The notes under the pieces: model-generated
What the model was told of the DNA's origin: nothing
The model's input: the letters and a program-made list of their open reading frames with translations, nothing else
Database searches by the model: none
Shown here: piece by piece, positions 27,359-44,001 of the stretch
How the letters are laid out: each line of letters starts with the position of its first letter
How positions within the stretch are numbered: the first letter of the stretch is position 1
From: Burkholderiales bacterium
Lineage (GTDB): Bacteria; Pseudomonadota; Gammaproteobacteria; Burkholderiales; Thiobacteraceae
DNA: 64,000 nucleotides
Assembly (NCBI GenBank): GCA_023511995.1
Contig: JAIMAL010000001.1
Coordinates: 186,001 to 250,000 of the forward strand
Direction of reading: 5' to 3'
Made by a program: the position numbers and the translations under genes

Positions 27359-28314
27359 GCGCCACCCCCTCCCGCCAGGAGGCTCATGACGGCCATGCGC
27401 ACGGCGATGCCGAAGGTCACCTGGGGCAGAATCACCGCCTGCCGGCCGTCGGCGACGCTGGAATCAATTTCCACACCGCGGTTCATGGGGCCGGGGTGCA
27501 TGACGATGGCATCGGGTTTGGCTGCCTTCAGCTTTTCCGGGGTGAGCCCGTAGTGCTTGAAGTATTCGCCGGCGCTGGGCAGAAGCGGCCCGCGCATGCG
27601 TTCATTCTGCAATCTCAGCATCATCACCACATCCACGTTCTTCAGCCCGCGGGCCATGTCATGGAAAACCGTCACGCCCAGCTCCTCCACCCCTTTTGGC
27701 AGCAGGGTGCGCGGGGCCACCACGCGCAGATCGGGTACACCGAGGATGCGCAGGGCATGGATTTCGGAGCGCGCCACGCGGGAGTGCAGGATGTCGCCGA
27801 CGATGGCGATGGACAGCTGGCGGAAATCCCCCTTGTAGCGGCGAATGGTGAATACGTCGAGCAGACCCTGGGTAGGATGGGCATGGCGGCCATCGCCGGC
27901 ATTGATGACGCGGATGTGGGGCGCCACATGGCGGGCGATGAAATGGGCAGCACCCGATTCCGGGTGACGCACGACGAACATGTCGGCACCCATGGCGGCG
28001 AGGTTGTCCACCGTATCGAGGAGGGTCTCCCCCTTGGTCTGGCTGGAGGTCCCGATGTTGAGATTGACCACGTCGGCGGACAGGCGCTTGGCGGCGATCT
28101 CGAAGGTGGTGCGGGTGCGGGTGGAAGGCTCGAAAAAGAGATTGAAGATCGCCTTGCCCCGCAGTAGCGGGACTTTCTTCACCTCCCGTTCGTTGACGCC
28201 AACGAAGGATTCCGCGGTATCGAGGATGGTGTGGATGAGTTCGGCGGGGAGTCCCTCGATGGTGAGCAGGTGGCGGAGCCTGCCGTTTTCGTCGAGCTGG
28301 GGATTCGGCGCCAT
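27355..28314 (-). CDS. pyrB: Aspartate carbamoyltransferase catalytic subunit
   Basis: A 319-residue enzyme that condenses carbamoyl phosphate with aspartate, the first committed step of pyrimidine synthesis. The carbamoyl-phosphate motif [19 protein letters not shown] is at about residues 59-77. [29 protein letters not shown] and [12 protein letters not shown] complete the active-site signatures. No pyrI regulatory gene follows; the degenerate DHOase does. It starts 10 bases after pyrR. Confidence 0.95.
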
Positions 28315-28324
28315 GGAAAGTGCG

Positions 28325-28837
28325 TCAGTGTCGCTTGTCCAGAAGACTCAGGCTGAGCCGCCCATGGGGATCCCGCGCAAGCTGGATGTGCTGGTGGGGC
28401 GGCAGCGGCAGCACAGCCCCCACGTATTGAGCGCAGATGGGCAGTTCCCGCCCGCCACGGTCGATGAGCACGGCAAGCTCGATGGATGCCGGCCGGCCGA
28501 AATCGAACAACTCGTTCATCGCCGCACGCACGGTGCGCCCGGTGTAGAGCACGTCATCCACCAGGATGATGTGCGCCCCCTCGACGGGGAAATCGATGCT
28601 GGACGGACGCACCTGGGGATGCAACCCCATGCGGCTGAAGTCATCCCGGTAAAAAGCGATGTCCAGCGTGCCCAGGGGAATCTCCGCCCCGAGGAGGGCG
28701 AGGAGTTTCTGTGCCACCCAGGCGCCGCCGGTGTGGATGCCCACCACGGCGCTTTGCGGCGTGAGGTGCCCGGCGATCTCCTCCGCCAGGCGGCGGATCA
28801 GGGCATCGGCCTCAGGCAGCGCGGGCGCGGTGCTCAT
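28325..28837 (-). CDS. pyrR: Bifunctional pyr regulator / uracil phosphoribosyltransferase PyrR
   Basis: A 170-residue type I phosphoribosyltransferase. The PRPP-binding loop is [18 protein letters not shown], preceded by [16 protein letters not shown] and followed by [20 protein letters not shown]. In Gram-positives PyrR controls pyr attenuation; in Proteobacteria its role is less clear. No attenuator hairpin is obvious upstream of it here. The ATG at 28837 has GAGG in front and lies inside the ruvX 3' end. Confidence 0.9.
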
Positions 28838-29243
28838 CGAAAAACCTCTGCAAGATATGGCTTGCCGCCAGCGCATCGGTGGGGGCGGTAACGCCCCCCG
28901 TGGCGCGCCGGTCCTCTTCCGCCGCCACCGAGGTGAGCCGCTCGTCCACCATCACCGCCGGGCGATGAAAGCGCCCCATAAGCTGGCGGGCAAAACGCCG
29001 GCAGCGGATGGCGAAGGCGTGTTCACCGCCATCCAGATGGTGCGGCAGACCCACCACGAAAAGCGCCGGCTGCCATTCCGCCACCAGCGCCGCGATGGCC
29101 GCGAAGCGGGCCTCCTTGCGGCTTGCGGCAAGCGTGGTGAGGGGATGGGCCACGCCCAGGGCGAGCTCGCCCACCGCCACGCCGATCCGCTTTTCGCCAA
29201 AGTCGAAGGCGAGCACCGTGCCACTGGCAGGCATCTTAAGCAT
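28812..29243 (-). CDS. ruvX: Putative pre-16S rRNA nuclease / Holliday junction resolvase YqgF (RuvX)
   Basis: A 143-residue RNase H-fold nuclease. VLAFDFGEKRIGVAVGE at the N-terminus carries the first catalytic aspartate, VGLPHHLDGGEHA lies mid-way, and VDERLTSVAAEE is the C-terminal motif. YqgF matures the 16S rRNA 5' end in E. coli. The ATG at 29243 overlaps the algH stop by 8 bases; an ATG at 29234 is also possible. Member of the conserved algH-ruvX-pyrR-pyrB run. Confidence 0.9.
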   Translation of the reverse strand: MLKMPASGTVLAFDFGEKRIGVAVGELALGVAHPLTTLAASRKEARFAAIAALVAEWQPALFVVGLPHHLDGGEHAFAIRCRRFARQLMGRFHRPAVMVDERLTSVAAEEDRRATGGVTAPTDALAASHILQRFFDEHRARAA

Positions 29244-29796
29244 GGCCCGCGTCCTCGGCGAGGTTGGCGGCGTTGAGCCCCAGAAGCGCCATGGCGGCGT
29301 CGAAGCGCGCTTCCACCGGCAGCTCGAAGAGGATGCTGAGGTCCGCGGGTGCGGTGAGCCAGGCGTTCTGGGCAATTTCGTGTTCCAACTGCCCCGGCGC
29401 CCAGCCGGCATAGCCCAGGGTGATGAAAAACTGCGCCGGCCCCCGCCCTTCGGCGAGGGCTTCGAGCACGTCCCGGGAGGTGGTGAGCCCGATGTCGTTG
29501 CCCACGAGGAGGGTGGCGGCCCAGGGTCCGGCCGGCCGATGGAGGACGAAACCCCGGTCGGTTTGCACCGGCCCGCCGAAGTGGATGGCGCGCTCGGCGA
29601 GTTCCGGCACCTTGAGTTCGATGCCCACCTGTTTGAGCAAGCCACCCAGGGTGAGGTCGAGGGGCCGGTTGATGATCACCCCCAGGGCGCCATGCTCGTT
29701 GTGTTCGCAGAGATAGGTGACCGAGCGGGCGAAATAGGGGTCAGCCATCGCGGGCATGGCGATGAGGAAGTGGTGGGCGAGATGGGTGCCGTCCAT
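29236..29796 (-). CDS. YqgE/AlgH family protein
   Basis: A 186-residue protein of the UPF0301 family. It begins MDGTHLAHHFLIAMPAMADP, followed by SVTYLCEHNEHGALGVIINR and IHFGGPVQTDRGFVLHR, all hallmark segments. AlgH was linked to alginate control in Pseudomonas but the molecular function is unknown. The start at 29796 gives the family N-terminus; the in-frame start at 29814 adds six unconserved residues. First gene of the pyrimidine operon. Confidence 0.92.
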   Translation of the reverse strand: MDGTHLAHHFLIAMPAMADPYFARSVTYLCEHNEHGALGVIINRPLDLTLGGLLKQVGIELKVPELAERAIHFGGPVQTDRGFVLHRPAGPWAATLLVGNDIGLTTSRDVLEALAEGRGPAQFFITLGYAGWAPGQLEHEIAQNAWLTAPADLSILFELPVEARFDAAMALLGLNAANLAEDAGHA

Positions 29797-29918
29797 GGCG
29801 GGATTATCGCACACGCCGGGGGCGGCCGCGCTCTCCCGGCGGAGGTTTTGCGCCCTGCGCCTTTGTGGGAGAATGGCGCGCCGGAAAGTCCCCCTTAACC
29901 CATGGCGAGGAGAAACGC

Positions 29919-30146
29919 ATGTCCACCCAAAATGCCCCCTATGAAGTCCAGGTCGAGGCCGGCCAGGAATACTGGTACTGCGCCTGCGGCAAAAGCAGCA
30001 ACCAGCCCTGGTGTGATGGCTCCCACCAGGGCACCGGGGTGGAGCCCATCCCCTTCACCGCGAAAGAAACCGGCACCGTCTGGCTGTGCGGCTGCCGCAT
30101 GAGCGAAAACCTGCCCTACTGCGACGGCACCCACAATTCTCTCTAA
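29919..30146 (+). CDS. CDGSH iron-sulfur domain protein (two motifs)
   Basis: A 75-residue cytoplasmic protein with two CDGSH-type [2Fe-2S] motifs: CACGKSSNQPWCDGSH (about residues 23-38) and CGCRMSENLPYCDGTH (about 57-72). Each offers the 3-Cys 1-His ligand set of mitoNEET-like proteins. A GGCGAGGAGAAAC ribosome-binding region precedes the ATG at 29919; the longer in-frame start at 29865 lacks family similarity. Divergent from the algH operon. Likely redox or Fe-S transfer role. Confidence 0.92.
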   Translation: MSTQNAPYEVQVEAGQEYWYCACGKSSNQPWCDGSHQGTGVEPIPFTAKETGTVWLCGCRMSENLPYCDGTHNSL

Positions 30147-30226
30147 GCGTGCGGCGCGGGCAGCCCCCTTTGTCGAAGAGGATCGCTGGTCCTTAAAGAG
30201 GCAACTTCCCTGCAAAGGCGGATGAG

Positions 30227-30255
30227 GGCCTCTTCCCCCGGGCGGGGAAGAGGCC
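30227..30255 (+). terminator. Strong hairpin downstream of the CDGSH gene
   Basis: A 12-bp perfect stem, GGCCTCTTCCCC (30227-30238) with GGGGAAGAGGCC (30244-30255), and a 5-base loop. It lies 80 bases after the CDGSH stop and 70 before phr. No T-run follows, so termination is uncertain. Confidence 0.5.
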
Positions 30256-30324
30256 GGCGTTGCAGGCGGCCTCGGCCAGCGGCACCGCATCCCGTCTTTT
30301 CGCGCCCAACCCCTGCAAGACCCC

Positions 30325-31761
30325 ATGGGCGAACGTTTCGACCGCGTGCTGGTGTGGTTTCGCCGCGATCTGCGGGATGAGGACCACGCCGCGCTCTCCC
30401 GCGCCCTACATGACGCGCGGGCGGTGTACTGTGCCTTCGTCTTCGACACCGACATTCTTGAAGCCCTGCCGGATCGCGCCGACCGGCGCGTCGAGTTCAT
30501 CTGGCACTCGGTTGAGGCCCTCGATGCCGCACTCACCGCCCGGGGCGGGGGCCTCATCGTGCGCGTGGGGCGTGCCGCGGAGGTGATCCCGGCGCTGGCG
30601 CAGGCCCTTGCCTGCGACGCAGTGTTCGCCAACCGCGACTACGAACCCGCCGCCCTGGCGCGGGATGCGCAGGTGAAGGCGGCTCTCGAAAGTGTCGGTC
30701 GAAGCTTTCACCTTTTCCGGGACCAGGTGATCTTTGACCCGGAGGAGGTGCGCTCCGCAAGCGGTCGACCCTACCAGGTGTTCACCCCCTTCAGCCGGGC
30801 CTGGCTCAAGCGCCTTGACGAGGCGCACCTTTCGCCCCAGCCCGTGGCGGTGCGGGCCGCGCGCCTTGCGCCGCCGCCGCGGCGGGAGATGCCCTCCCTT
30901 GAGGCCTTGGGCTTTTCCCCCACCGATCTCCTTGCCCTGGGCGTTGCGCCGGGCATGGACGGGGCCCGCGCTACCTGGGACGCCTTCCGGCAGCGGCTTG
31001 CGGACTACGACCGCTTGCGCGACCGGCCCGACCTCGATGCCACTTCCCACCTTTCGGTGCATCTGCGCTTTGGCACGATCTCCGTGCGGGAGCTGGTGCG
31101 CTATGCCCTGCAGGCGGGGGGCGGCGCGCAGGCGTGGCTTGCCGAGCTCATCTGGCGGGAGTTTTTCCAGATGATCCTCTTCTTCCACCCGCAGGTGGTG
31201 AATCATGCTTTCCGCGCCGAGTTCGACGGGCTTCCCTGGCCGGGGACGGACGCGGACTTCGCGAGATGGTGCGAGGGACGCACCGGTTATCCCCTGGTGG
31301 ATGCGGGCATGCGGCAGTTGCGTGCCACCGGTTTCATGCACAACCGGGTGCGCATGGTGGTGGCTTCCTTCCTCAGCAAGCACCTCCTTGTGGACTGGCG
31401 CCGGGGCGAGCGCCATTTCGCGCGCTGGCTGTTGGATTACGAGCTGGCCTCGAACAATGGCAACTGGCAGTGGGCGGCGTCCACCGGGTGCGATGCCCAG
31501 CCGTGGTTTCGTATCTTCAATCCGGTGGCCCAGTCGCGCCGCTACGATCCGGAAGGACGCTACATCCGCCGCTGGGTGCCGGAACTGTCCCGCGTGCCCG
31601 CGCCGGCCATTCATGCGCCTTGGGAGATGAGCCCTTTGGCGCAGGAGGCAAGTGGCTGCCGCATTGGCCGGGATTATCCCGCGCCCTGTGTCGATCACGG
31701 CCACGCCCGGGAACGGGCGCTGGCCTGGTTTCGCGCCCACCGTCATGCTCACGGTGGCTGA
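30325..31761 (+). CDS. phr: Deoxyribodipyrimidine photolyase
   Basis: A 478-residue class I DNA photolyase that repairs cyclobutane pyrimidine dimers with light. The N-terminal antenna domain begins VLVWFRRDLRDEDHAALSRA; the FAD-binding C-terminal domain has TSHLSVHLRFGTISVREL, RTGYPLVDAGMRQLRATGFM and ELASNNGNWQWAASTGCDAQ, followed by YDPEGRYIRRWVPEL. Length and motifs are complete. The antenna pigment cannot be told from the sequence. Convergent with fbp. Confidence 0.95.
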   Translation: MGERFDRVLVWFRRDLRDEDHAALSRALHDARAVYCAFVFDTDILEALPDRADRRVEFIWHSVEALDAALTARGGGLIVRVGRAAEVIPALAQALACDAVFANRDYEPAALARDAQVKAALESVGRSFHLFRDQVIFDPEEVRSASGRPYQVFTPFSRAWLKRLDEAHLSPQPVAVRAARLAPPPRREMPSLEALGFSPTDLLALGVAPGMDGARATWDAFRQRLADYDRLRDRPDLDATSHLSVHLRFGTISVRELVRYALQAGGGAQAWLAELIWREFFQMILFFHPQVVNHAFRAEFDGLPWPGTDADFARWCEGRTGYPLVDAGMRQLRATGFMHNRVRMVVASFLSKHLLVDWRRGERHFARWLLDYELASNNGNWQWAASTGCDAQPWFRIFNPVAQSRRYDPEGRYIRRWVPELSRVPAPAIHAPWEMSPLAQEASGCRIGRDYPAPCVDHGHARERALAWFRAHRHAHGG

Positions 31762-31789
31762 AGGCGCACCTCCCGGCGCGGCCGCTCGA

Positions 31790-32821
31790 TCAGGCGACCT
31801 TTTCCTCCGCTTCCCTGTGATAGGCGACGATGCGCTCCACCTCGTTTTTCGAGCCCAGGATCACCGGCACCCGCTGGTGGATGTGGGTGGGGTTGATTTC
31901 CATGATGCGGGTACGCCCGGTGCTCGCGGCGCCCCCCGCCTGCTCGACAATGAAGCTCATGGGATTGGCCTCATACATCAGGCGCAGCTTGCCGCCCTTT
32001 TCCTTCAGCTTGCTGTCCATGGGATACATGAACACACCGCCGCGGGTGAGGATGCGGTGCACCTCGGCCACCATGGAGGCAATCCAGCGCATGTTGAAAT
32101 CCTTGCCCCGCGGACCCTGGCTGCCCTGGATGCACTCGTCCACGTAGCGGCGGATGGGCGGCTCCCAGAAGCGGTAGTTGGACATGTTGATGGCGAATTC
32201 CCTGGTGTCCTCGGGGATGCGCATGTTCTCGTGGGTGAGCACGAACTCACCCACGTTGGGGTCCAGGGTGAAGCCGTTGACGCCGTGACCGGTGGTGAGC
32301 ACCAGCATGGTGGACGGGCCATAGATGGCGTAACCGGCGCACACCTGCTTCACACCCGGCTGTAGGAAGGCTTCCACCGGGGTGGGACCTTCGACGTTCC
32401 TGTCGCCGGGGCAGCGCAGGATGGAGAAGATGGAGCCCACGGACACGTTCACGTCCATGTTGGAGGAGCCATCGAGGGGGTCGAAGAGCAGCAGATACTT
32501 GCCCCGCGGGTAGCCGGCGGGAATCTGGTAGGGCTCCTCCATTTCTTCGGAGGCCATGGCGGCGAGGTGGCCCGCCCATTCGTTGCGCTTCAGGAAGATT
32601 TCATTGGCGATCACGTCCATCTTTTTCTGCTCTTCCCCCTGGACGTTCTCGGAGCCCGCTGCGCCCAGCACGCCCAGCAGGCCGCCGTGGTTGACGCCAT
32701 TGGAAATCATCTTGATGGCGGTGACGACGTCGTTCAAAAGGCCGGTGAAGTCGCCGGTGGCGCCCGCGACGCGCCGTTGTTCTTCGATCAGAAACTGCGT
32801 CAAAGTGGTGCCGAGGTGCAT
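31790..32821 (-). CDS. fbp: Class I fructose-1,6-bisphosphatase
   Basis: A 343-residue phosphatase converting fructose-1,6-bisphosphate to fructose-6-phosphate in gluconeogenesis and, in autotrophs, the Calvin cycle. The metal-binding motif [20 protein letters not shown] is intact, and [19 protein letters not shown] with [13 protein letters not shown] near the C-terminus is typical. A TATAAT promoter lies about 45 bases upstream. It is divergent from the TonB-dependent receptor. Confidence 0.95.
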
Positions 32822-32862
32822 GGGATGCCTTTCCTGTCCAATTAGAAAATTAGAAACTGCTG

Positions 32863-32890
32863 ATTATAAAGGATTCCCGGGGCGGGACAA
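32863..32890 (-). promoter_or_regulatory. Promoter of fbp
   Basis: On the minus strand, a perfect TATAAT (32863-32868) lies 16 bases from TTGTCC (32885-32890). It precedes the fbp ATG by about 42 bases. Between them, ATTAGAAA occurs twice in tandem (about 32841-32856). Confidence 0.65.
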
Positions 32891-32910
32891 ACTCGCTGCT
32901 GCCCCCAGAC

Positions 32911-32927
32911 TGCGACAACGTGTCGCA
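32911..32927. promoter_or_regulatory. Palindromic operator between fbp and the TonB-dependent receptor
   Basis: TGCGACA-ACG-TGTCGCA, a perfect 7+3+7 inverted repeat. It lies 80 bases before the receptor ATG and about 20 bases upstream of the fbp -35 box, so it could control either gene. It does not resemble a Fur box. Confidence 0.6.
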
Positions 32928-33006
32928 TTCCGGGTGGAGTGGAGGGTGAGTAGCATCGTGTTGCCAGAAAACCATAAAAGCAATTCAAAACCGGAAAGGC
33001 CCCAGC

Positions 33007-35115
33007 ATGGCTGTTCGCTATCCCCTGTTTGTCCTGCTGTTCCCCCTCACCGCCTTCGCCGCCGACACCCTCGACGAAGTCACCGTCACCGGTACCCGCG
33101 AAGGCCAACTGCTGTCTGAGACCCCCGCCAGCGTCAAAGTCATTTCCGGCGAGACGGTGCGCCAGGACAAGCCCAGCCATCCCTCCCAGATCCTCGGCCA
33201 GTCTCCCGGCGTGTGGGTCAATGTCACCGGCGGCGAGGGCCACATGACGGCCATCCGCCAGCCGCTCACCACCAATCCGGTCTATCTCTATCTCGAGGAC
33301 GGCATCCCCACCCGCTCCACCGGCTTTTTCAACCACAACGCCCTGTACGAGATCAACGTGCCCCAGGCCGGCGGCATCGAGGTGACGCGCGGCCCGGGCA
33401 CGGCGCTCTACGGCTCCGATGCCATCGGCGGGGTGGTGAATGTGCTGACGCGGCCGGCGCCGTCGAAGTTCGAGGCCGAGCTCGCCGGCGAGGTGGGCGA
33501 ATACGGCTGGCGGCGGCTCCTGGGCAGCGTCGGCAATACCTGGGGCGAAGACGGCCTGCGCGCCGATCTCAATCTCACCACCACCGACGGCTGGCGCGAG
33601 CACACCGGCTACGACCGGCAAAGCGCGACCCTGCGCTGGGACCGCGCCCTGGGTGCCGATGCGCTGCTCAAGACCGTGCTCACCGCCTCCCGCATCGACC
33701 AGCAGACCGCCGGCAGCTCGGCCCTCATCCGCAGCGACTACGAGAACGCGCCCACGAAGAACTACACCCCCATCTCCTACCGCAAGGTCAGCGCCCTGCG
33801 CCTGTCCAGCGCCTGGGAGCGCGAGGTGGGCGACACCCTGGTGTCCCTCACTCCCTATCTGCGCGACGACAGCATGGAGCTGCTTCCCAACTGGTCGCTT
33901 TCCTATGACCCCACCGTCTACATCACGGCCAACCGTTCCTTCGGTGTCATGGGCAAATGGCGCCGGGATTTCGCGCCCTTTCGCGCGCGCCTGATCGCAG
34001 GCATCGACCTCGACCTGACCCCCGGCAGCCGCGAAGAAAACCGGCTGGCCACGCTCACCACGAGCGGCAACGGTGCGTCGAAGGTCTATGCCGCTTACAC
34101 CGTGGGCACGCGGATCTATGACTACGCCGTGACTTTCATCGGTGTTTCGCCCTATGTACACAGCGAGTTTTCGCCGAGTGAACGCATGCGCGTGAGCGCG
34201 GGTCTGCGCTACGACAATCTGCGCTATCGCTTCGATAATCACCTCTCCGGTGCGGTCGCGGCCAGCACCCGCGAAAACAGCGGCGCGCCGGTCACGCGTT
34301 ACTACGGTCAGGCGGAAGACACCACGGTGCGCTTCACCCATCTGAGCCCCAAGCTGGGCCTGACCTTTGCCGTGTCGCCGCAGACAAGCCTCTTCGCTTC
34401 CTACAACCATGGCTTCCGTGCCCCTTCGGAGGGGCAGCTGTTCCGCCCTGCCGCGCAGACGACCTCCCTGCGCGCGCAGCTTGCGGCGGCTTCGGCGCTG
34501 GGGCTCAAGCCGGTGAAGGCGGACCAGTATGAGGCGGGTGTGCGCGGCAGGAGGGGCTTGCTCGACTACGATCTTTCCGTCTATCGGCTGCAAAAGCGCG
34601 ACGACATCCTGAGCTATCGTGATCCCTTCACCAATGCCACCCAGGTGGTGAACGCGGGCAAGACCCTGCACCGGGGCGTGGAGCTGGGCCTGGGGGCGCC
34701 GCTCGCGCAGACCTGGCGCCTGGATGCGGCGCTCTCCTACGCCCGCCACACCTACGAGACGTGGGTGATTCCGGGCACTGCGGATTACAGCGGCAAGGAA
34801 ATGGAGACCGCGCCCCGTGTCATCGGCAATGTGCGGCTGACCTGGGCACCGGCGCAGGGACAGCGCGTGCAGTTGGAGTGGGTGAAACTGGGGCGCTACT
34901 GGATGGACCAGGCCAACACCCGCCAATACGCCGGCCATGACGTATTCAACCTGCGCGCGAACTGGGCGCTCACCCCTTTGCTGAGCGTCTATGGCAGCGT
35001 GCAGAATCTGCTGGACACGCGCTATGCGGAAAGCGCCTCCGTCTCCTCCGGCGCGGAGGTATTTGCGCCCGGCCTGCCGCGCACCCTCTACGCGGGGATC
35101 GAAGCCAAGTGGTGA
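33007..35115 (+). CDS. TonB-dependent outer-membrane receptor
   Basis: A 702-residue outer-membrane transporter. A signal peptide ends at about FPLTAFA/ADTLDEV; a TonB box (DEVTVTGTR) is at the mature N-terminus. The plug domain (about residues 30-150) has VYLYLEDGIPTRSTGFFNHN and GGIEVTRGPGTALYGSDAIG followed by GVVNVLTRP. The beta-barrel follows, with HGFRAPSEGQLFRP and the terminal strand YAGIEAKW ending in an aromatic residue. The ligand is not evident. The next gene starts inside its stop, and the downstream propeller, thioredoxin and TonB genes form one locus with it, suggesting uptake of a ligand handled by periplasmic partners. Confidence 0.92.
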   Translation: MAVRYPLFVLLFPLTAFAADTLDEVTVTGTREGQLLSETPASVKVISGETVRQDKPSHPSQILGQSPGVWVNVTGGEGHMTAIRQPLTTNPVYLYLEDGIPTRSTGFFNHNALYEINVPQAGGIEVTRGPGTALYGSDAIGGVVNVLTRPAPSKFEAELAGEVGEYGWRRLLGSVGNTWGEDGLRADLNLTTTDGWREHTGYDRQSATLRWDRALGADALLKTVLTASRIDQQTAGSSALIRSDYENAPTKNYTPISYRKVSALRLSSAWEREVGDTLVSLTPYLRDDSMELLPNWSLSYDPTVYITANRSFGVMGKWRRDFAPFRARLIAGIDLDLTPGSREENRLATLTTSGNGASKVYAAYTVGTRIYDYAVTFIGVSPYVHSEFSPSERMRVSAGLRYDNLRYRFDNHLSGAVAASTRENSGAPVTRYYGQAEDTTVRFTHLSPKLGLTFAVSPQTSLFASYNHGFRAPSEGQLFRPAAQTTSLRAQLAAASALGLKPVKADQYEAGVRGRRGLLDYDLSVYRLQKRDDILSYRDPFTNATQVVNAGKTLHRGVELGLGAPLAQTWRLDAALSYARHTYETWVIPGTADYSGKEMETAPRVIGNVRLTWAPAQGQRVQLEWVKLGRYWMDQANTRQYAGHDVFNLRANWALTPLLSVYGSVQNLLDTRYAESASVSSGAEVFAPGLPRTLYAGIEAKW

Positions 35116-36269
35116 GGCGGCTCACCGTTTTCCTGCTGCTTGCCGCCGCGCCCGCGTGGGGGCAGGGGCACCATGGCGCGGACATGCCGCTTGTCGTCTC
35201 GGCGATCTTCGATGACGCGGGCCGGCTGTGGCGGGCGCAGGTGTGGGAGGGCCGGGTCTGGGTGAGCCACTCCGACGACAAGGGCCAAAGCTTCTCCACG
35301 CCGGTGGCCGTCAACGACCAGGCCGAGTCCATCGCCGCCGACGGCGAGAACCGCCCCAAGCTCGCCGTGGCGGGGCAGCGGGTCTATGTCTCCTGGACGC
35401 AGCGTCTCGACAGGCCCTACACCGGCCATGTGCGCTTCGCCCGCTCCCTCGATGGCGGCAGGCACTTTTCCGCGCCCCTCACGGTCAACGACGACCGCGC
35501 GGTGATCAGCCACCGTTTCCACAGCCTGCTCGTGGACGGCAGGGGCCGGATTCACCTGTTCTGGCTGGACAAGCGCGACGCCGCGGCGGCGCAGGCCGCC
35601 GGCCGCCCCTATGCGGGGGCCGCCCTCTACCATGCCGTGTCTGACGATGGCGGCGCGCACTTCTCGCCCAATACGCGCCTTGCCGCCAACAGCTGCGAAT
35701 GCTGCCGGGTGGTGAGCGCCCTCGATACCGACGGCCTGCCCCTGGTGTTCTGGCGCCACATCTTCGGCCGCAATGTGCGCGACCACGCCCTGCTCAAGCT
35801 GGATGGCAGCGCGCCCGTGCGCGTGTCCCACGATGGCTGGGAAGTGGATGCCTGTCCCCATCACGGCCCGGCGCTGGCCGTGGGGGCGGATGGCACGCGG
35901 CATCTGGCCTGGTTCAACGATGGGCCCGAGCGTCACGGGTTGTTCTATGCGCGGATGGATCCGGCGGGCCAGCTGTCGCCGCCGCTGGGCTTCGGCAATT
36001 ACGACGCCCAGGCGGGACATCCCAGCGTGGTGGTGGTAGGGACGAGGGTGTTCCTGGCATGGAAGGAGTTCGACGGCCAGCGCGCGAGCGTGTGGATCAG
36101 GGCCTCACGCGACGGCGGCCGCAGTTGGTACGCGCCGCACCGCCTGATGGACACCGCGGGCGCTTCCGACCATCCCCTGCTGATCAGCGACGGCGCGACG
36201 GCTTATGTGTCGTGGAACACCGCGCAGGAAGGCTATCGCCTGCAAGCCATCGAGGATCCCGCGCCATGA
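35112..36269 (+). CDS. Secreted Asp-box beta-propeller (sialidase-like) protein
   Basis: A 385-residue exported protein: signal peptide LTVFLLLAAAPAWG, then a predicted beta-propeller with four Asp-box-like repeats (SDDKGQSF, SLDGGRHF, SDDGGAHF, SRDGGRSW). No sialidase arginine triad is apparent, so enzymatic sialidase activity is doubtful. Cysteine clusters NSCECCRVV and DACPHHGP may form disulfides or bind metal. A GTG start (35112, or 35109) overlaps the receptor stop. It is followed, with ATGA overlap, by a thioredoxin-like gene that could service its cysteines. Periplasmic or surface-associated partner of the receptor is an inference. Confidence 0.75.
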   Translation: MRRLTVFLLLAAAPAWGQGHHGADMPLVVSAIFDDAGRLWRAQVWEGRVWVSHSDDKGQSFSTPVAVNDQAESIAADGENRPKLAVAGQRVYVSWTQRLDRPYTGHVRFARSLDGGRHFSAPLTVNDDRAVISHRFHSLLVDGRGRIHLFWLDKRDAAAAQAAGRPYAGAALYHAVSDDGGAHFSPNTRLAANSCECCRVVSALDTDGLPLVFWRHIFGRNVRDHALLKLDGSAPVRVSHDGWEVDACPHHGPALAVGADGTRHLAWFNDGPERHGLFYARMDPAGQLSPPLGFGNYDAQAGHPSVVVVGTRVFLAWKEFDGQRASVWIRASRDGGRSWYAPHRLMDTAGASDHPLLISDGATAYVSWNTAQEGYRLQAIEDPAP

Positions 36270-36751
36270 GGCGTCTTCTGCTCGCATGGGCGCTTCTGCT
36301 GGCGGCGTCCGCGCAGGCGGAGGACGCGGCCCTCAAACGCTTCGTGCCCGGCAGCGCCAAGGCCATCATCGAGGCCCGCGCCGGTCGTCCCTTCATCCTG
36401 ACCTTCTGGTCTGTCGACTGCGTGCATTGTCACGCCGAACTGGAACAACTGGCCGCGCTATCGCAGGCGCACCCCGCACTCGAAGTGGTGCTGGTGTCCA
36501 CCGATGGCCCCGAAGCGTCGCGAGAGGTATCGGCAGCGCTGCGACCGTATCGGTTTGCACGCATGGAATCCTGGGTGTTCGCCGATGCTTTCGCCGAACG
36601 CCTGCGTTTCGAGGTTGATCGCCGCTGGCGAGGGGAGTTGCCCCGCACTTACCTGTACCGGCCGGATGGCAGGGCCGAAGCCGTGACCGGGGCCATCGCC
36701 CCGCAGCAGCTCGAGGCATGGCTCGCTTCGGCTGCCGGGGATCGTCCCTGA
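36266..36751 (+). CDS. TlpA-like periplasmic thioredoxin
   Basis: A 161-residue exported protein with signal peptide ending near ASAQAED and a thioredoxin fold. The active-site motif is C52-x2-C55 (FWSVDCVHCHAELEQL), the TlpA/ResA type, followed by VVLVSTDGPEASREV and a C-terminal LPRTYLYRPDGR. It probably reduces or isomerises disulfides in the periplasm. It overlaps the propeller gene by ATGA and precedes tonB by 13 bases. The cysteine-rich propeller is the obvious candidate substrate. Confidence 0.85.
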   Translation: MRRLLLAWALLLAASAQAEDAALKRFVPGSAKAIIEARAGRPFILTFWSVDCVHCHAELEQLAALSQAHPALEVVLVSTDGPEASREVSAALRPYRFARMESWVFADAFAERLRFEVDRRWRGELPRTYLYRPDGRAEAVTGAIAPQQLEAWLASAAGDRP

Positions 36752-36764
36752 ACGGGGGCGAAGG

Positions 36765-37484
36765 ATGAAAATTCCCCGCGAGCCGCTTCCGGCAGCGGTG
36801 AGCTTCCTGGGCTCGGTGCTTTTACACGCCCTGCTTCTTGCCTGGCTGCCACCCCTGAGACCCGCCGCGGTAGAGGCGGCGCCGACAAGCTTTTCACCCC
36901 TCGTGGTGCAGCTCGTGGACAGCGGCAAGACAACCTCCCTGCCGCCGCACTCCGCTCCCACCACGGCAGCAAGGGCCGGGCCCGTGCCCGGGTCGCCGCG
37001 CGCGGTTCCCGTGGCAAAAGTTTTCCCTGCTCCGCTCCCCCAGTCTGCACCCTTGACTTCCGTGCTGGAGGCCACGGCGGCGCCAGCCGCGAAGGAGGCC
37101 GCTCCCACGCCCGCGGCAGCGCTCCCATTGGTGGCTTGGACGCCGGCGACGCGAAAGGAGACGGAGACCGCGATGGAGACCACGCCTCCTGATCTGAGGG
37201 CCGCCTACGCTAGCAATCCGCCGCCTTCCTATCCCCTCGCGGCGCGCCGGCTGGGCCTGGAGGGGCGGGTGGTGCTGTGGGTGGAAATCCGCGCCGACGG
37301 CAGCTGCGGGGAAGTACGGGTGCGGCAGACGGCAGGCCATCCGCTGCTCGATGAGGCTGCGGCAGCCGCGGTGAAGCGCTGGCGCTTCCTCCCCGCGCGG
37401 CACGGTGGTGAGCCCGTCACCACCTGGGCGGAGGTTCCCATCCGCTTCCGCCTCACTGGCTCGTCAACTGATCCTGACGGGTGA
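36765..37484 (+). CDS. Energy transducer TonB
   Basis: A 239-residue inner-membrane protein. One N-terminal helix (SFLGSVLLHALLLAWL, about residues 14-30), a Pro/Ala-rich periplasmic linker, and a C-terminal TonB domain beginning near PPSYPLAARRLGLEGRVVLW with DGSCGEVRVRQTAGHPLLDE and AVKRWRFLPARHGG. It couples the proton-motive force to the receptor in the same locus. No exbB or exbD genes are nearby. Its last 32 bases overlap the 3' end of the convergent TonB-like gene. Confidence 0.9.
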   Translation: MKIPREPLPAAVSFLGSVLLHALLLAWLPPLRPAAVEAAPTSFSPLVVQLVDSGKTTSLPPHSAPTTAARAGPVPGSPRAVPVAKVFPAPLPQSAPLTSVLEATAAPAAKEAAPTPAAALPLVAWTPATRKETETAMETTPPDLRAAYASNPPPSYPLAARRLGLEGRVVLWVEIRADGSCGEVRVRQTAGHPLLDEAAAAAVKRWRFLPARHGGEPVTTWAEVPIRFRLTGSSTDPDG

Positions 37485-38334
37485 AGGTCCAAGTGCGGGT
37501 GATGGCGAGGATGTCGGTGTCCCTGCGCACGTTTTCCGGGAAGGGGGCGAAGGGCGCGGCAAGCTTGACGATGCGGATCGCCGCTTCGTCCAGGATGGGG
37601 GAGCCGGAGGAGCGGTCCAGATCGATTCTTTCCACGCTGCCGTCGCTGCGGATGTGCACGGTGAGCAGCAGGCTGCCGTAGATTTTCTTCCGCCGCGCTT
37701 CCTCCGGATAGTTGAGATTGCCCACCCGCTCCACCTTCAGCCGCCAGTCCTCCACGTACTGGGCGAAGCGGTATTCCTCGGTGCGCGCCCCGACGAAGCG
37801 GCGTTTGGGCCGTTCCTGATAGGCCTGATAGTCCTTTTCGATCTGGGCCTGCAGGCGGGCAAGCTGCAGGCTCTGGGTGATGAGATCCTGGCCCGCCGAC
37901 CGCGCCGTCTCCGCGGTGGACTCCGCGGGCGGACTGGGTGGAGGCTCATTGCGGGTGGCGCGCACCTGGGCGAGGAGGCGGGTCGCCTCCCGTTCCAGTT
38001 CCTTCACCCGTTCCTCCCGCCGCTTGAGCTCCGGCTGCGGGTCTTCCTGGCCCACCGCGGGCAGCGGCGAGGTGGCACGCAGCCGGCGGTCGGTGTTGCC
38101 TCCCCCTTCCAGATTGGCCTGGGCGAGGAGACGGGCGTCGCTGGGGCGTTGCGGCGAGCGGGCATTGACCAGCACCACCTCCAGCGCCGGGCGCGCTTTT
38201 TCCATGCTGCGGGGCGGCGGCACGAAATGGAGGCTGAGCACGGCGGCATGGAGTAGCGCCGATAGCGTCATGGTGATCGCAATCGGCGGCAGATTGCCAA
38301 AGGGGCTGCGCACAGAGGAAAGGCGAAGGTTCAC
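37453..38334 (-). CDS. TonB/TolA-like protein with coiled-coil linker
   Basis: A 293-residue protein with an N-terminal membrane helix (MTLSALLHAAVLSLHFVPP, about residues 21-39), a charged helical linker (LKRREERVKELEREATRLL, then LARLQAQIEKDYQAYQERP), and a C-terminal TonB domain (NYPEEARRKKIYGSLLLTV, DGSVERIDLDRSSGSPILDE). It resembles proteins that pair with a TonB system or TolA. The start may be at 38334 or at the methionine just before the helix. It is convergent with, and overlaps, the TonB gene above. Confidence 0.85.
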   Translation of the reverse strand: MNLRLSSVRSPFGNLPPIAITMTLSALLHAAVLSLHFVPPPRSMEKARPALEVVLVNARSPQRPSDARLLAQANLEGGGNTDRRLRATSPLPAVGQEDPQPELKRREERVKELEREATRLLAQVRATRNEPPPSPPAESTAETARSAGQDLITQSLQLARLQAQIEKDYQAYQERPKRRFVGARTEEYRFAQYVEDWRLKVERVGNLNYPEEARRKKIYGSLLLTVHIRSDGSVERIDLDRSSGSPILDEAAIRIVKLAAPFAPFPENVRRDTDILAITRTWTFTRQDQLTSQ

Positions 38335-38394
38335 GCGAGTGTCGAAGGATCGGTGGAGAACGGCCTCCTCAGCGCATTGTAACGGTTTGCAGCA

Positions 38395-40230
38395 CTACGG
38401 GGTGACCACTTCCCGGAAGGGACAGACGACCTCCAGGGTGAGGAGGTCCACGCTGCGGATGGCAAGCCGCACGCGGGTACCAGGCTCCAGCGCAGGCAGG
38501 GCGACGGCCTTGTTCACCAGCGGCAGCGTATCGAAGCGCACCAGGTTTTCCCGGATCACGGTGGCGGTGGCTTCGGTGAGGTTTTCCTGCAGCAGATAGC
38601 GAAGGGTCCAGTAGCGTTCCATGTGGCGCTGGAATTCGTTATAGGCCTCGTAGGCGGTCTCGAAATCGCGCGCAATGGCCTGCAACGCTTCTCTGCAGTA
38701 GGGGGGAGGCTCCCCGCGCAGATGGGCGATTAGTTGTCGCTGGTTGACGAGGTCCACGTAACGGCGCAAGGGGGAGCTCGTCCAGGTGTAGTGGCTCACC
38801 CCCAACCCCTGGTGGGGCAGGGGCTCGGTGGTCATCAGGGTTTTGCCGTTGGTCTGGGCGCGGTAGAGGGCGGCGAGCTTCTGTTCCGCCAGCAGTTGGC
38901 CGAGGCGGCTGTTGACCAGGATCATCATCTCCGCCACCACCTTGTCGATGGGGGTACCCCGTTGCCGATGCAGGATGCGCACCGTCTCGCCCTCGACGCG
39001 GAAGGTGTACTCCGGCACCAGGCTGCGGCCGCGGTCCTTGCCGCCGCGTTTTTCCTCCAGGTGCTCGGCGAAGTGCCACAGCCACTCCAGTTCCGCCCGG
39101 TAGCGGTAATCCGCCTCCTGGCCGATGGTGTCCCGGTTGAACAGGGGCTCCAGGGTCTCATGGCGCAGGTTGGCGACGATGGGCACCTTTTCGATCCGCA
39201 TTTCCATGGCCGTGATTTCGTAATCCGGTCCCACGGTGAAATAGGTGGAAAAAGCGGGACAGGCAGCGCCTTCGCGCAGGGTGTAGGCGGCCACCGCTTC
39301 GTCCGGCAGCATGGTGATCTTGTCGCCGGGCATATAGACGGTGGAAAGCCGCCGGCGGGCGATGGCATCCAGTTCGGCGCCCACAGTCACGCCGAGCGCC
39401 GGACAGGCGATGTGGATACCCACCCGGGTTCGGCCATCGGGCAGGGGGGTGAGGGAGAGGGCATCATCGATTTCCGTGGTCGTCTCGTCATCGATGCTGA
39501 AGGCCGCCACCTCCGCCAGCGGCAGATCGTCCGGCACTTCCACTGGCGGCAGCGGCGGAAAACCACGCCCCTCGGGGAACCACTCCAGCAGGAAGCGGTT
39601 GAGATGGTAGTCACGGCTTGAGGGAATCGCGCCGCATTTTTCCAGCAGGTGGGGAATGGAAAGATTGGTGGCGGCGGCAGCCTGTTCCAGCGCCTTGGTC
39701 TCCAGCGCGCCTTTTTCCGGCGCATAGAGGAGGCGCTGCAACGCGGGACGGAATGCCTCCGGCAGGCGAAAGGCGGTGAGCTCGGCCACCCACTGGGCGA
39801 GCTGCTCCGCCTGCCGGCGCTTGCGTTCTTCGCTGGCCAATGCCGCCTTCAGGGCATCCTCCGGTGCCGGTTTGTAACGGCCGCGTCCTTTGCGATAGAA
39901 GTACATGGGCGCGCCTTGGAGCTTGAGGAGCAGGGCGGCCGCTTCCACCGCGTTGGGCTCATGGCCGAAATATTCCCGTGCCAGGTCCCGGTAATCGAAT
40001 TCCTCCGTGCCCGCCGCCTGCCAGAGGAAATCCAGATCCATCTCGTCGGCAAGCTTCTGCGCCGTTTCCATGAAACCGTTCAGTGCCGGCTCGCCAAAAC
40101 GGATGAGCACGTCGGCTGCCTTGATCTTGGCACGCCGGCCGTGCTGGGCTTCGATGTGCAGGGAGGTGCCGTTGTCGGCGAGGATGGTGCCCACCCGGAA
40201 GTGGCCATCCTCGAAATAAAAGGCGTACAT
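38395..40230 (-). CDS. RNB-domain ribonuclease (RNase II family)
   Basis: A 611-residue exoribonuclease of the RNase II/R superfamily. The catalytic RNB domain starts at about residue 235 with FSIDDETTTEIDDALSL (metal-binding aspartates) and ends before residue 560 with HYTWTSSPLRRYVDLVNQRQ. The N-terminal half (MYAFYFEDGHFRVGTILAD onward) differs from E. coli RNase II and matches a shorter proteobacterial subgroup. A C-terminal S1-like region (VRLAIRSVDLLTLEV) is present. Cytoplasmic 3'-5' RNA degradation is expected. Confidence 0.9.
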   Translation of the reverse strand: MYAFYFEDGHFRVGTILADNGTSLHIEAQHGRRAKIKAADVLIRFGEPALNGFMETAQKLADEMDLDFLWQAAGTEEFDYRDLAREYFGHEPNAVEAAALLLKLQGAPMYFYRKGRGRYKPAPEDALKAALASEERKRRQAEQLAQWVAELTAFRLPEAFRPALQRLLYAPEKGALETKALEQAAAATNLSIPHLLEKCGAIPSSRDYHLNRFLLEWFPEGRGFPPLPPVEVPDDLPLAEVAAFSIDDETTTEIDDALSLTPLPDGRTRVGIHIACPALGVTVGAELDAIARRRLSTVYMPGDKITMLPDEAVAAYTLREGAACPAFSTYFTVGPDYEITAMEMRIEKVPIVANLRHETLEPLFNRDTIGQEADYRYRAELEWLWHFAEHLEEKRGGKDRGRSLVPEYTFRVEGETVRILHRQRGTPIDKVVAEMMILVNSRLGQLLAEQKLAALYRAQTNGKTLMTTEPLPHQGLGVSHYTWTSSPLRRYVDLVNQRQLIAHLRGEPPPYCREALQAIARDFETAYEAYNEFQRHMERYWTLRYLLQENLTEATATVIRENLVRFDTLPLVNKAVALPALEPGTRVRLAIRSVDLLTLEVVCPFREVVTP

Positions 40231-40283
40231 GGGGCAAACCGCGGCGAAAGGGGCGCAAGTTTACCGTAAGGGGAGAATCGCGA

Positions 40284-41093
40284 CTAGCCGCGATGGAGGA
40301 GCATTTCCAGCACGGTCTTGGTGCCCACGTAGGCGAGCAGCAGGGTGAAGAAACCGGCCAGGCTCAGAATCAGCGCCGTGCGCCCGCGCCAGCCATAGAC
40401 ACGCCGGCCGACAAGGAGGGCACCATAGAAGAGCCAGGACAACGTCGCGAACACCGTCTTGTGCTGGGTGAAATAGGCAAAGGAAAAGGGCCGGCCGAAC
40501 AATTCCTCGGAAAAGAGCATGCCGCTTACCAGGGTGAGGGTGAGCAGCAGAAAGCCGGCGCCAATCAGACGGAACAGCAACTGTTCCATGGTCATGAGGG
40601 GGGGTAGCCCGGCGAGTGGGGAAGGCTGCCGGGTATGCAGCCGCTTTTCGGCGAAGGCCATGACGATGCCGTGCAGGGCGGCGATGGTGAACAGGGCATA
40701 GGCGAGAAAGGCTGCAGCGAAGTGGGCGTGAAAGAGGGCATAACCGCCATAGGGCACGACGTGGCTGTCCCGCAGCAGAAGGGGCGCGAGCGCCCCCACG
40801 GCGGCGATGGGCAGCACCACCGGCGTGAGGGCCCGCAGGTGATAGCGCACGCTGCTTGCTCCATAGAGGACCAGGGTGACCCAGGTGATGACGGAAATGG
40901 CATTACCAAGACCGATGTTCACCCCCTGCGCGGTGAAGATGGACACGTAAAGGAGCAGACCGTGCAGCAACAGGGGGGCTGGCAAAAGCCACTCGACGCC
41001 GGGCCCGCCCTCGGCACTGGCGCGACGCCGGCAGTACCAGGCCAAGGCCCCGTAAAGCAGCGCGGTGAGGAGGGAAAGAAGGGTGAGAGGCAT
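40284..41093 (-). CDS. CcsA/YpjD-family inner-membrane protein
   Basis: A 269-residue protein with about eight hydrophobic helices, starting MPLTLLSLLTALLYGALAWY. Segments YGGYALFHAHFAAAFLAYAL and FAYFTQHKTVFATLSWLFYG carry the histidines typical of the CcsA/HemX fold used for cytochrome c assembly. The location next to ffh marks it as the YpjD type, whose function is unproven. The start at 41093 removes a non-hydrophobic N-terminal extension that would overlap the ffh promoter. Confidence 0.85.
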   Translation of the reverse strand: MPLTLLSLLTALLYGALAWYCRRRASAEGGPGVEWLLPAPLLLHGLLLYVSIFTAQGVNIGLGNAISVITWVTLVLYGASSVRYHLRALTPVVLPIAAVGALAPLLLRDSHVVPYGGYALFHAHFAAAFLAYALFTIAALHGIVMAFAEKRLHTRQPSPLAGLPPLMTMEQLLFRLIGAGFLLLTLTLVSGMLFSEELFGRPFSFAYFTQHKTVFATLSWLFYGALLVGRRVYGWRGRTALILSLAGFFTLLLAYVGTKTVLEMLLHRG

Positions 41094-41170
41094 CAGGTGT
41101 AGAATGGCATTTTCCGGCGCTTGATCCCCGGGGATTATAGCCCAGCCTTTCCTTTGCCTGACTTCATTCC

Positions 41171-42514
41171 ATGCTCGACACACTGACCAGCCGATTGTCC
41201 GGTCTCATCCGGAACCTCCGCGGTCAGGCCCGCCTGACCGAGGACAACATCGCCGATGCCCTGCGCGAGGTCCGCATGGCCTTGCTGGAGGCGGATGTGG
41301 CGCTGCCGGTGGTGAAGGATTTCATCGCCCACGTCAAGGCGCGCGCGCTGGGGCGGGAGGTGATGGCGTCGCTGACGCCTGGCCAGGCCCTGATCCAGGT
41401 AGTGCACGAGGAACTCACCCGCCTCATGGGGGGCAGCCATGCCGCCCTCAATCTCGCCACCACCCCGCCGGCGGTGATTCTGCTCGCCGGTCTGCAGGGC
41501 TCGGGCAAGACCACGACTGCCGCCAAACTGGCGCGCCTGCTCAAGGAACAGAAAAAGAAAGTCCTTCTTGCCAGCTGTGACGTCTATCGGCCGGCGGCCA
41601 TCGAGCAGTTGCGTCAGCTCGCCCGCGCCCTGGAGGTGGATTTCTTCGAGTCACCCGCCGGAGCGGGTCCACTCGCCATTGCCTCGGCGGCGCTCGATTA
41701 TGGGCGGAGACACTACCACGACGTGCTCATCGTGGATACCGCGGGGCGGCTTGCCATCGACCAGGAGATGATGGAGGAGATCCGCGCCCTTCACGCGGCG
41801 CTCAACCCCATCGAAACCCTCTTCGTGGTGGATGCCATGCAGGGGCAGGATGCCATCAACGTGGCGCGGGCCTTCAACGAGGCCCTGCCGCTCACCGGCA
41901 TCGTGCTCACCAAGCTGGATGGGGATGCGCGGGGCGGGGCGGCGCTGTCGGTGGTGAGTGTCACCGGCAAGCCCATCAAATTCGTCGGTGTATCGGAAAA
42001 GCCCACGGGCCTTGAGCCCTTCCATCCGGAACGCATGGCTTCCCGGGTATTGGGCATGGGCGATGTGCTCTCCCTCATCGAGGCGGCGCGGCGCCAGGTT
42101 GATGAGGCGGAGGCGGCGAAGCTCGCTCGAAAACTCAAGACCGGCAAGGGCTTCGACCTCGAGGATTTCCGCGACCAACTGCGGCAGATGCAAAAAATGG
42201 GGGGGCTCGCCGCGCTGCTGGACAAGCTGCCGGGTGAGCTTGCCCACGCGGCCAGGGGGCAGGCCATCGATGATCGCCTCCTGCGCCGGGTGGAGGGCAT
42301 CATCAATTCCATGACCCCGGAGGAGCGCGCCAATCCTGCCATCATCAAGGCCTCCCGCAAACGGCGCATCGCCGCCGGCGCCGGGGTGCAGGTGCAGGAG
42401 GTCAACCGCCTGCTCAAGCAGTTCGAGGACATGCAGAAGATGATGAAGTCCCTGAGGCGGGGGGGCTTCGCCAAGATGCTGCGGGGCATGAAAGGCATCC
42501 TGCCCGGTTTGTGA
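41171..42514 (+). CDS. ffh: Signal recognition particle protein Ffh
   Basis: A 447-residue GTPase that targets nascent inner-membrane proteins with 4.5S RNA and FtsY. The N domain (LTSRLSGLIRNLRGQARLTE), the G domain with GLQGSGKTTTAAKLA (P-loop), VLLASCDVYRPAAIEQLRQL, VDTAGRL and TKLDGDARGGAALS, and the methionine-rich M domain (FRDQLRQMQKMGG, MTPEERANPAIIKASRKRR) are complete. Divergent from ypjD. Confidence 0.96.
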   Translation: MLDTLTSRLSGLIRNLRGQARLTEDNIADALREVRMALLEADVALPVVKDFIAHVKARALGREVMASLTPGQALIQVVHEELTRLMGGSHAALNLATTPPAVILLAGLQGSGKTTTAAKLARLLKEQKKKVLLASCDVYRPAAIEQLRQLARALEVDFFESPAGAGPLAIASAALDYGRRHYHDVLIVDTAGRLAIDQEMMEEIRALHAALNPIETLFVVDAMQGQDAINVARAFNEALPLTGIVLTKLDGDARGGAALSVVSVTGKPIKFVGVSEKPTGLEPFHPERMASRVLGMGDVLSLIEAARRQVDEAEAAKLARKLKTGKGFDLEDFRDQLRQMQKMGGLAALLDKLPGELAHAARGQAIDDRLLRRVEGIINSMTPEERANPAIIKASRKRRIAAGAGVQVQEVNRLLKQFEDMQKMMKSLRRGGFAKMLRGMKGILPGL

Positions 42515-42542
42515 GGATCCTTGTTGCGGCTGCCGCCGGAAA

Positions 42543-42559
42543 GGTTTCGAGACGAAACC
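42543..42559. terminator. Short hairpin after ffh
   Basis: GGTTTCG-AGA-CGAAACC, a perfect 7-bp stem in the gap between convergent ffh and the PA2778-type gene. There is no T-run. Confidence 0.4.
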
Positions 42560-42591
42560 ATCTCCTCGCGGCGCACAAGACCCCGCAAGCC

Positions 42592-43596: not shown

Positions 43597-43611
43597 GGGA
43601 AAGCGGTCCAA

Positions 43612-44001
43612 TCAGCGCACCGGCCGCGTGAAGGGGAAGACCTTGGTGAAGCCCAGGATGTCGGTGACGAGGAGGACGAGGAAGAGGAACACGATCACCC
43701 CCAGCACATCGCCACCCGCCGGGACCTCGTCCAGCTTGCCGGCGATCAGGGCCACTTCCTCGTCGGTGAGCGCGGCGACCCGCTTTTTGGCTTCGTTCAT
43801 GTCCACGCCGCGGGCTTCCAGGGCGGCGCGCACTTCGGCACGGTCGAGCAATTCGGCCACGCGCTGCCGGTCATTGGCCTGCTCGCGGACGATGTCGCCG
43901 GTGGTCACCAGGCCCGCCTGGGCGGTTTGCAGGGGCAGGGTGATGAGCAGCATGACGGCAAGGGCGAAACGGCTGGTAAGGCGCAGGAAACGGCTGTTCA
44001 T
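43612..44001 (-). CDS. PA2779-family protein
   Basis: A 129-residue exported protein: signal-like N-terminus RFALAVMLLITLPLQTAQAG, a helical mid-region (REQANDRQRVAELLDRAEVR, LEARGVDMNEAKKRVAALTD) and a C-terminal membrane helix (DVLGVIVFLFLVLLVTDILG). The arrangement, including the C-terminal helix, fits the PA2779 family, partner of the PA2778 peptidase directly downstream. The ATG at 44001 has AAGGAG upstream. The helical part could be the peptidase substrate or anchor. Confidence 0.85.
   Translation of the reverse strand: MNSRFLRLTSRFALAVMLLITLPLQTAQAGLVTTGDIVREQANDRQRVAELLDRAEVRAALEARGVDMNEAKKRVAALTDEEVALIAGKLDEVPAGGDVLGVIVFLFLVLLVTDILGFTKVFPFTRPVR

Follow-up and report, generated by a model that had tools for sequence, protein, structure and literature searches.

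A TonB-dependent receptor, an Asp-box propeller and a TlpA-like thioredoxin: a conserved gene set with a proposed role in copper acquisition

Why a TonB-dependent receptor should be encoded together with an Asp-box propeller and a TlpA-like thioredoxin is the question raised by positions 33007-37484 of the window, a stretch of 64,000 nucleotides from a Burkholderiales bacterium (assembly GCA_023511995.1, contig JAIMAL010000001.1, positions 186,001 to 250,000). The original prediction, made from the letters alone, had described four genes in a row here, the first three overlapping at GTGA and ATGA, and the coordinates bear this out, with all four genes on the plus strand. The first gene (33007-35115) encodes a receptor of 702 residues that belongs to the TonB-dependent transporter superfamily, scoring above the cut-offs for both Plug (PF07715, 56.8 bits) and TonB_dep_Rec (PF00593, 154 bits). 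The propeller gene (35109-36269, 386 residues) starts at the GTG at 35109, or at a second GTG at 35112 that gives the GTGA overlap with the receptor stop at 35112-35115. Its own stop overlaps the start of the thioredoxin gene (36266-36751, 161 residues) in the ATGA at 36266-36269, and the tonB gene (36765-37484, 239 residues; TonB_C 82.5 bits, cut-off 24.6) begins 13 bp further on. Signal peptides of the propeller and the thioredoxin were read by eye. With moderate confidence, we interpret the set as a cell-envelope copper-acquisition operon, in which the propeller would accept or reduce incoming copper and would be kept reduced by its own thioredoxin.

Conservation of the gene set

Of 150 genomes of the order, 21 held propeller relatives at E ≤ 1e-10. 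With a family alignment and E ≤ 1e-15, relatives turned up in 30 out of 369 genomes for the class and in 17 out of 398 for the phylum, each count including the window's genome. Sixteen genomes with weak matches were dropped before the loci were counted; relatives from 12 of the 16 were inspected separately (G002, G219, G435 and G510 excepted). The 49 genomes with strong matches and the Muproteobacteria contig L001 made up a sample of 50 loci, in which synteny was counted by profiles on stop-to-stop frames. A TonB-dependent receptor lay directly upstream of the propeller, on the same strand and with a gap of less than 600 bases, in 44 of the 50 loci, and a TlpA-like gene lay directly downstream in 44 as well. 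Both neighbours were present together in 40 loci from 31 genera (L001 counted as one). The set occurs across many proteobacteria and is no peculiarity of the window. The original prediction had allowed that the propeller family might occur mostly without receptor or thioredoxin neighbours; the opposite was seen.

The six loci without a directly upstream receptor were G681, G292, G380, G404, G284 and G177. The receptor of G292 was next door on the opposite strand, and that of G380 was 695 bases upstream. Among the six loci without a directly downstream TlpA-like gene, G122, G380 and G464 end at a contig edge, and in G404 no more than 881 bases remain; in G220 and G346, no TlpA-like gene was found beside the propeller. 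Some reading frames in the sample were irregular. Within the receptor of L001 (4389-6845 of that contig), a stretch of ~75 residues is repeated almost identically, which may be an artefact of the assembly. The receptor of L039 (9677-11800) and a second propeller copy in L045 (7007-8177) are each split over two frames, by natural decay or sequencing error.

The window's receptor is 51-83% identical to six of seven aligned relatives and 39% identical to that of L001; its structure prediction reached a mean predicted local distance difference test score (pLDDT) of only 24.1. Two histidines of the plug, H79 and H110, co-occur in the same 22 of the 44 receptors found beside propellers. The other 22 receptors are of different kinds. 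The constant element of the system would accordingly be the pair of propeller and TlpA, and the exchangeable one the receptor.

The thioredoxin carries a CVHC active site and belongs to the TlpA/ResA group, with C52, C55 and P126 (taken as the cis-proline) invariant in 15 of 15 sequences. Its solved relatives in a profile search included ResA (3.6e-8) and TlpA (1jfu, 4e-5), and the Pfam family AhpC-TSA was just missed (25.0 bits, cut-off 26).

The propeller and its cysteine and histidine motifs

The propeller has Asp-boxes at residues 55, 113, 178 and 333, a number reached by none of 20,000 shuffled versions of its sequence. These four boxes and the two clusters NSCECCRVV and DACPHHGP, both pointed out in the original prediction, are present, and between them the clusters account for every cysteine in the protein, four in number (C196, C198, C199 and C249). 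The CECC codons (C196, E197, C198, C199) lie at 35694-35705 and the CPHHG codons (residues 249-253) at 35853-35867, on the plus strand. Both motifs are conserved. C196, C198 and C199 are kept in all 50 aligned sequences and C249 in 49, the remaining row being gapped, and the histidines follow with H265 in 49, H252 in 47, H251 in 46, and H135 and H304 in 38 each. Several polar residues are likewise invariant, namely D154, R216 and R224 (50/50), with D225 in 49 of 50. Seventeen distant relatives were examined, and all 17 retained CxCC; ten came from genomes (including two second copies in genomes of the sample), four from plasmids and three from additional weak loci. The CPxxG pattern was present in 15 of them, as CPH in six (two of these CPHCG), CPVNG in eight and CPETG in one. 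In a viral collection, 31 stretches fitted a search pattern, and none of them was a relative.

A model built from two sequences (mean pLDDT 78.9, predicted template modelling score 0.81) and the four Asp-boxes place the protein among seven-bladed Asp-box propellers, while the Pfam family BNR_2 was just missed (31.1 bits, cut-off 31.4). The database name "sialidase" is due to the Asp-box repeats; a role in sialidase activity or sugar uptake was dropped, as no sugar-use genes were noticed beside the relatives, though no search was aimed at them. The best VIA-align match of the model was to the PLL lectins (Z 31.3, root-mean-square deviation (rmsd) 2.6 over 303 residues), which have seven blades according to the available text of PMC6943638. 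Behind them came CylK, glycoside hydrolases and lyases, and Foldseek ranked a PL25 lyase and sialidases at the top. No copper protein was recognised among the 50 VIA-align matches listed, which excludes nothing.

In the strand list of the model, H135, CECC, CPHHG, H304 and D354-H355 are found where the first strand of one blade after another begins, or immediately ahead of it. In propellers, this position is at one end of the channel. The order of the motifs therefore suggests that CxCC, CPHHG and the neighbouring histidines may form one common site at a channel mouth.

The same residues could belong to an enzyme. Copper would then still be taken up, but its carrier, an unknown chelator, would be the substrate of the propeller (a lyase, hydrolase or reductase), whose catalytic thiols TlpA would reset. 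Such an enzyme would be in keeping with the many invariant polar residues (D154, R216, R224 and D225), with a single propeller type common to receptors of several kinds, and with fold neighbours that are not only lectins but also lyases, hydrolases and CylK, an alkylating enzyme. However, the folds with the highest Z belong to sugar-binding lectins, no signature of catalysis stood out (though none was systematically searched for), and the conservation of cysteines and histidines fits a metal site. We regard a catalytic propeller as unlikely, although it fares better than the alternatives considered below.

Copper as the proposed ligand

Copper is named from the neighbours of the relatives. PCuAC genes (52 in 37 genomes) lay less than 10 kb from the propeller in 10 of 49 genomes, where 0.28 genes were expected, and DUF2946/CruR genes over the cut-off (31 in 17 genomes) did so in 13 of 49, where 0.14 were expected, the expected numbers and Poisson values being based on rounded genome sizes and on genomes treated as independent though related. 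Since the genomes share genera, the independent cases come to 5 genera for PCuAC and 8 for DUF2946. The DUF2946 search gave 47 rows in total, of which the 16 under the cut-off were dropped. FecCD-family permeases (53 genes in 37 genomes) served as a negative control and were never found within 10 kb of the propeller; the family also covers B12 permeases, and the control is thus not purely one for iron. DUF2946 is CruR; in Bordetella pertussis, copper is sensed by the nascent CruR chain, which switches off the downstream genes when the metal is in excess. Operons with cruR include PCuAC, YcnI, CopC and AhpC_TSA genes, as stated in the available text of PMC9426467.

Individual loci revealed the same context. 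A short frame with CxxC followed by R(A/G)PP near its end stands upstream of the receptors in several relatives. Two of the loci belong to the window's receptor clade: L040 (receptor 61% identical) reads cruR-PCuAC-receptor-propeller-TlpA, and L044 (receptor 50% identical) reads cruR-receptor-propeller-TlpA, with cruR confirmed as DUF2946 in both; L044 was missed by the genome search and is not among the 13 DUF2946 genomes. YcnI and CopCD follow downstream in L098, L139 and L140, and an OprC-family copper receptor (804 bits, cut-off 472) lies 5.5 kb from the propeller in L034. CopC, multicopper-oxidase, PCuAC or heavy-metal P-ATPase genes are near seven of the 17 distant propellers.

Some of this context might reflect copper tolerance or sensing instead of acquisition, with the propeller scavenging excess periplasmic copper. 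Distant propellers on plasmids of Sulfitobacter and Pseudosulfitobacter share their loci with genes for a copper oxidase, a copper-binding protein and a P-type ATPase, as would be expected for such a role. The close family, however, accompanies an outer-membrane receptor, and cruR leaders are found in 13 of 49 genomes, while in Bordetella cruR shuts an uptake operon off in copper excess (available text of PMC9426467). We consider tolerance or sensing improbable.

For the window, the ligand would be copper by kinship with the relatives; its own neighbours show no copper marker. Elsewhere in the genome there are four matches to the COX1 family, Sco and a single PCuAC gene. The original prediction had proposed a propeller that captures a ligand or metal and is served by its own thioredoxin and receptor. 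This fits the evidence, but the metal takes its name from the relatives and not from the window itself.

Several results weigh against copper acquisition by this set. With regard to the window, no copper gene adjoins the operon, the cruR pattern was not found in positions 27000-44000, and the genome gave no DUF2946 match. With regard to the receptor, no known copper receptor family is passed, the H79/H110 pair is missing from 22 of the 44 receptors accompanying the propeller, and only three of the 22 loci with the pair have a copper marker, namely L040 (cruR and PCuAC), L044 (cruR) and L117 (a P-type ATPase with a heavy-metal-binding domain). That P-ATPase domain was rejected as a marker for the whole clade: of the 21 clade genomes searched for it, only 1 has it near the propeller. 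In the wider sample, 13 of 49 genomes have PCuAC or an over-cut-off CruR close to the propeller, and they are not independent, one genus contributing five and another two. With regard to the propeller, the second motif is CPVNG, not CPHHG, in eight of the 17 distant relatives, and the truncated relatives L049 and L050 are without CxCC. The propeller model came from two sequences, the other four runs scoring 44-56, and the common site was placed from strand order, not from coordinates.

The window's receptor passed none of the curated ligand families. Ligands other than copper were weighed as well. One is a redox cofactor of the type of pyrroloquinoline quinone (PQQ), which would be imported by the receptor and processed by the propeller and the thioredoxin. 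By profile, the best solved relatives of the receptor over its full length are YncD/PqqU (5.7e-51); in E. coli the receptor gene yncD (PqqU) lies beside the propeller gene yncE, and copper markers are rare beside the window's receptor clade (the 3/22 loci above). But the receptor scores only 113.1 bits with the PqqU model NF041535, whose cut-off is 1200, on which ground PQQ uptake by a PqqU-type receptor was rejected, and the copper context of the propeller family speaks against any such ligand. A PQQ-like cofactor is accordingly quite unlikely. Iron-siderophore uptake with an accessory redox pair is the least probable of all and was rejected: many TonB receptors carry siderophores, and TIGR01783 is the best NCBIfam match of the receptor, albeit below the cut-off (161.8 vs 223.5), but the FecCD control (0/53, B12 permeases included) was negative.

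If copper is the ligand, the following route can be proposed. Energised by TonB, the receptor would carry copper through the outer membrane, the metal probably being bound in a Cu(II)-chelate. The propeller would then take over the metal in the periplasm at the putative site of CxCC, CPHHG and neighbouring histidines. The TlpA-like thioredoxin would keep the propeller cysteines reduced and may also supply electrons for the reduction of Cu(II) to Cu(I). Copper would finally pass to the general chaperones PCuAC and Sco and to haem-copper oxidases. A broader and more tentative proposal, which we hold with rather less than even confidence, is that CxCC/CPxxG propellers constitute a new protein class on a seven-bladed fold, carrying copper in the periplasm or reducing Cu(II) there. 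Many of them would draw electrons from a thioredoxin of their own, and the class would receive copper from several different TonB receptors and thereby provide the missing step from import through the outer membrane to the PCuAC/Sco chaperones.

We know of no periplasmic acceptor of copper from a TonB receptor. The conserved propeller-thioredoxin pair behind a receptor gene, with its set of cysteines and histidines, is a concrete candidate for one. If this is true, proteins annotated "sialidase family protein" in copper loci would gain a function.

Energy coupling, neighbouring genes and known systems

The original prediction had assigned the receptor a dedicated TonB and had found no exbB/exbD. 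The tonB gene does adjoin in the window, but TonB, ExbB or ExbD genes lie less than 9 kb from the propeller in only 15 of 50 loci, with exbB and exbD together in 11. No exbB/exbD was seen at the locus, whereas contig C4 of the same genome carries an ExbB/ExbD-type pair; a second ExbB/ExbD-like pair, on contig C14, is read as TolQ/TolR. A second TonB_C-domain protein (293 residues, 62.9 bits), absent from the original prediction, is encoded on the minus strand at 37453-38334, facing tonB and overlapping its 3' end by 32 bases. Its membership in the system is uncertain; a similar arrangement is present in the same-genus relative L031.

Other genes were noticed near the propellers. A match to Fer4_5-type polyferredoxins, which could be a membrane electron donor, lies less than 9 kb away in 4 of 50 loci (L032, L033, L043 and L110). 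A RegB/RegA-like redox two-component pair, a possible regulator, does so in nine (L107, L113, L117, L118, L112, L035, L043, L104 and L001), and RegB alone is near the propeller in L033. Elsewhere in the window, the plus-strand frame at 53548-54735 encodes a secreted-looking protein of 395 residues with an Asp-box-like stretch (SRDAGRHF) and without the propeller cysteine motifs. It gave no Pfam match at E 0.01 and is possibly another propeller.

The original prediction knew of no described system with this exact set. Our literature search, which covered few subscription papers and no supplementary tables, agrees in that no paper was found joining a sialidase-like or BNR propeller and TlpA in copper uptake; but copper-specific TonB-receptor operons as such have been described (PMC12914433 and PMC9426467, in their available text). 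According to the available text of PMC12914433, how bacteria acquire copper is poorly characterised next to how they defend themselves against an excess of it. The pair of propeller and thioredoxin seems to be a step of copper handling not described so far.

In E. coli, YncE aligns with the propeller model (Z 23.9, rmsd 2.9, 283 residues); to our knowledge, yncD/yncE have no thioredoxin partner. OprC (TIGR01778) is a copper-importing TonB receptor, as is proposed here for the window's receptor, and an OprC-family gene lies near one relative, as described above; the window's receptor itself falls outside the family (42.6 bits, cut-off 472.45). TccA is a further copper-importing TonB receptor in the available text of PMC12617631. 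The paper found to come nearest concerns the archaeon Nitrososphaera viennensis, whose clusters upregulated in copper limitation include sialidase-family and DsbD genes; the likeness to the propeller is one of family name, and no TonB receptor is named in the text available (PMC7785015).

The Bordetella pertussis operon cruR-crtA-bp2921 (CrtA, PDB 9RVQ/9RVX) has a copper TonB-dependent receptor, often under a cruR leader and sometimes with TonB/ExbBD and PCuAC, as far as the available text of PMC12914433 goes. CrtA and the window's receptor are only distantly and partially related (1.3e-13), and the latter was not assigned to CrtA (phmmer against 9rvq 53.7 bits, aligned in two parts, neither of which reaches His358, an invariant residue of the CrtA ligand site). 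The operon partner of CrtA is a PepSY_TM protein, whereas those of the window's receptor are a propeller and a TlpA-like thioredoxin; the main text of the CrtA paper, as available, mentions no propeller, sialidase, BNR, TlpA or thioredoxin (PMC12914433). In L049 and L050, the truncated propeller relative is divergent to a CrtA-kind cruR-receptor-PepSY-like operon, the PepSY name being read from the sequence.

Further likenesses come from Bradyrhizobium. The copper-starvation operon pcuABCDE of Bradyrhizobium japonicum resembles L098, L139 and L140 (receptor-propeller-TlpA-PCuAC-YcnI-CopCD); PcuA is PCuAC-like according to a review, and the text available mentions neither a propeller nor TlpA in the operon. 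The nearest tested precedent for a periplasmic thioredoxin reducing cysteines ahead of copper is the Bradyrhizobium TlpA, which reduces ScoI and CoxB before copper loading and is membrane-anchored (PMC6696091, available text), whereas the window's thioredoxin looks soluble by eye. The targets of that TlpA are Sco and CoxB, whereas the gene neighbour of the window's thioredoxin is the propeller.

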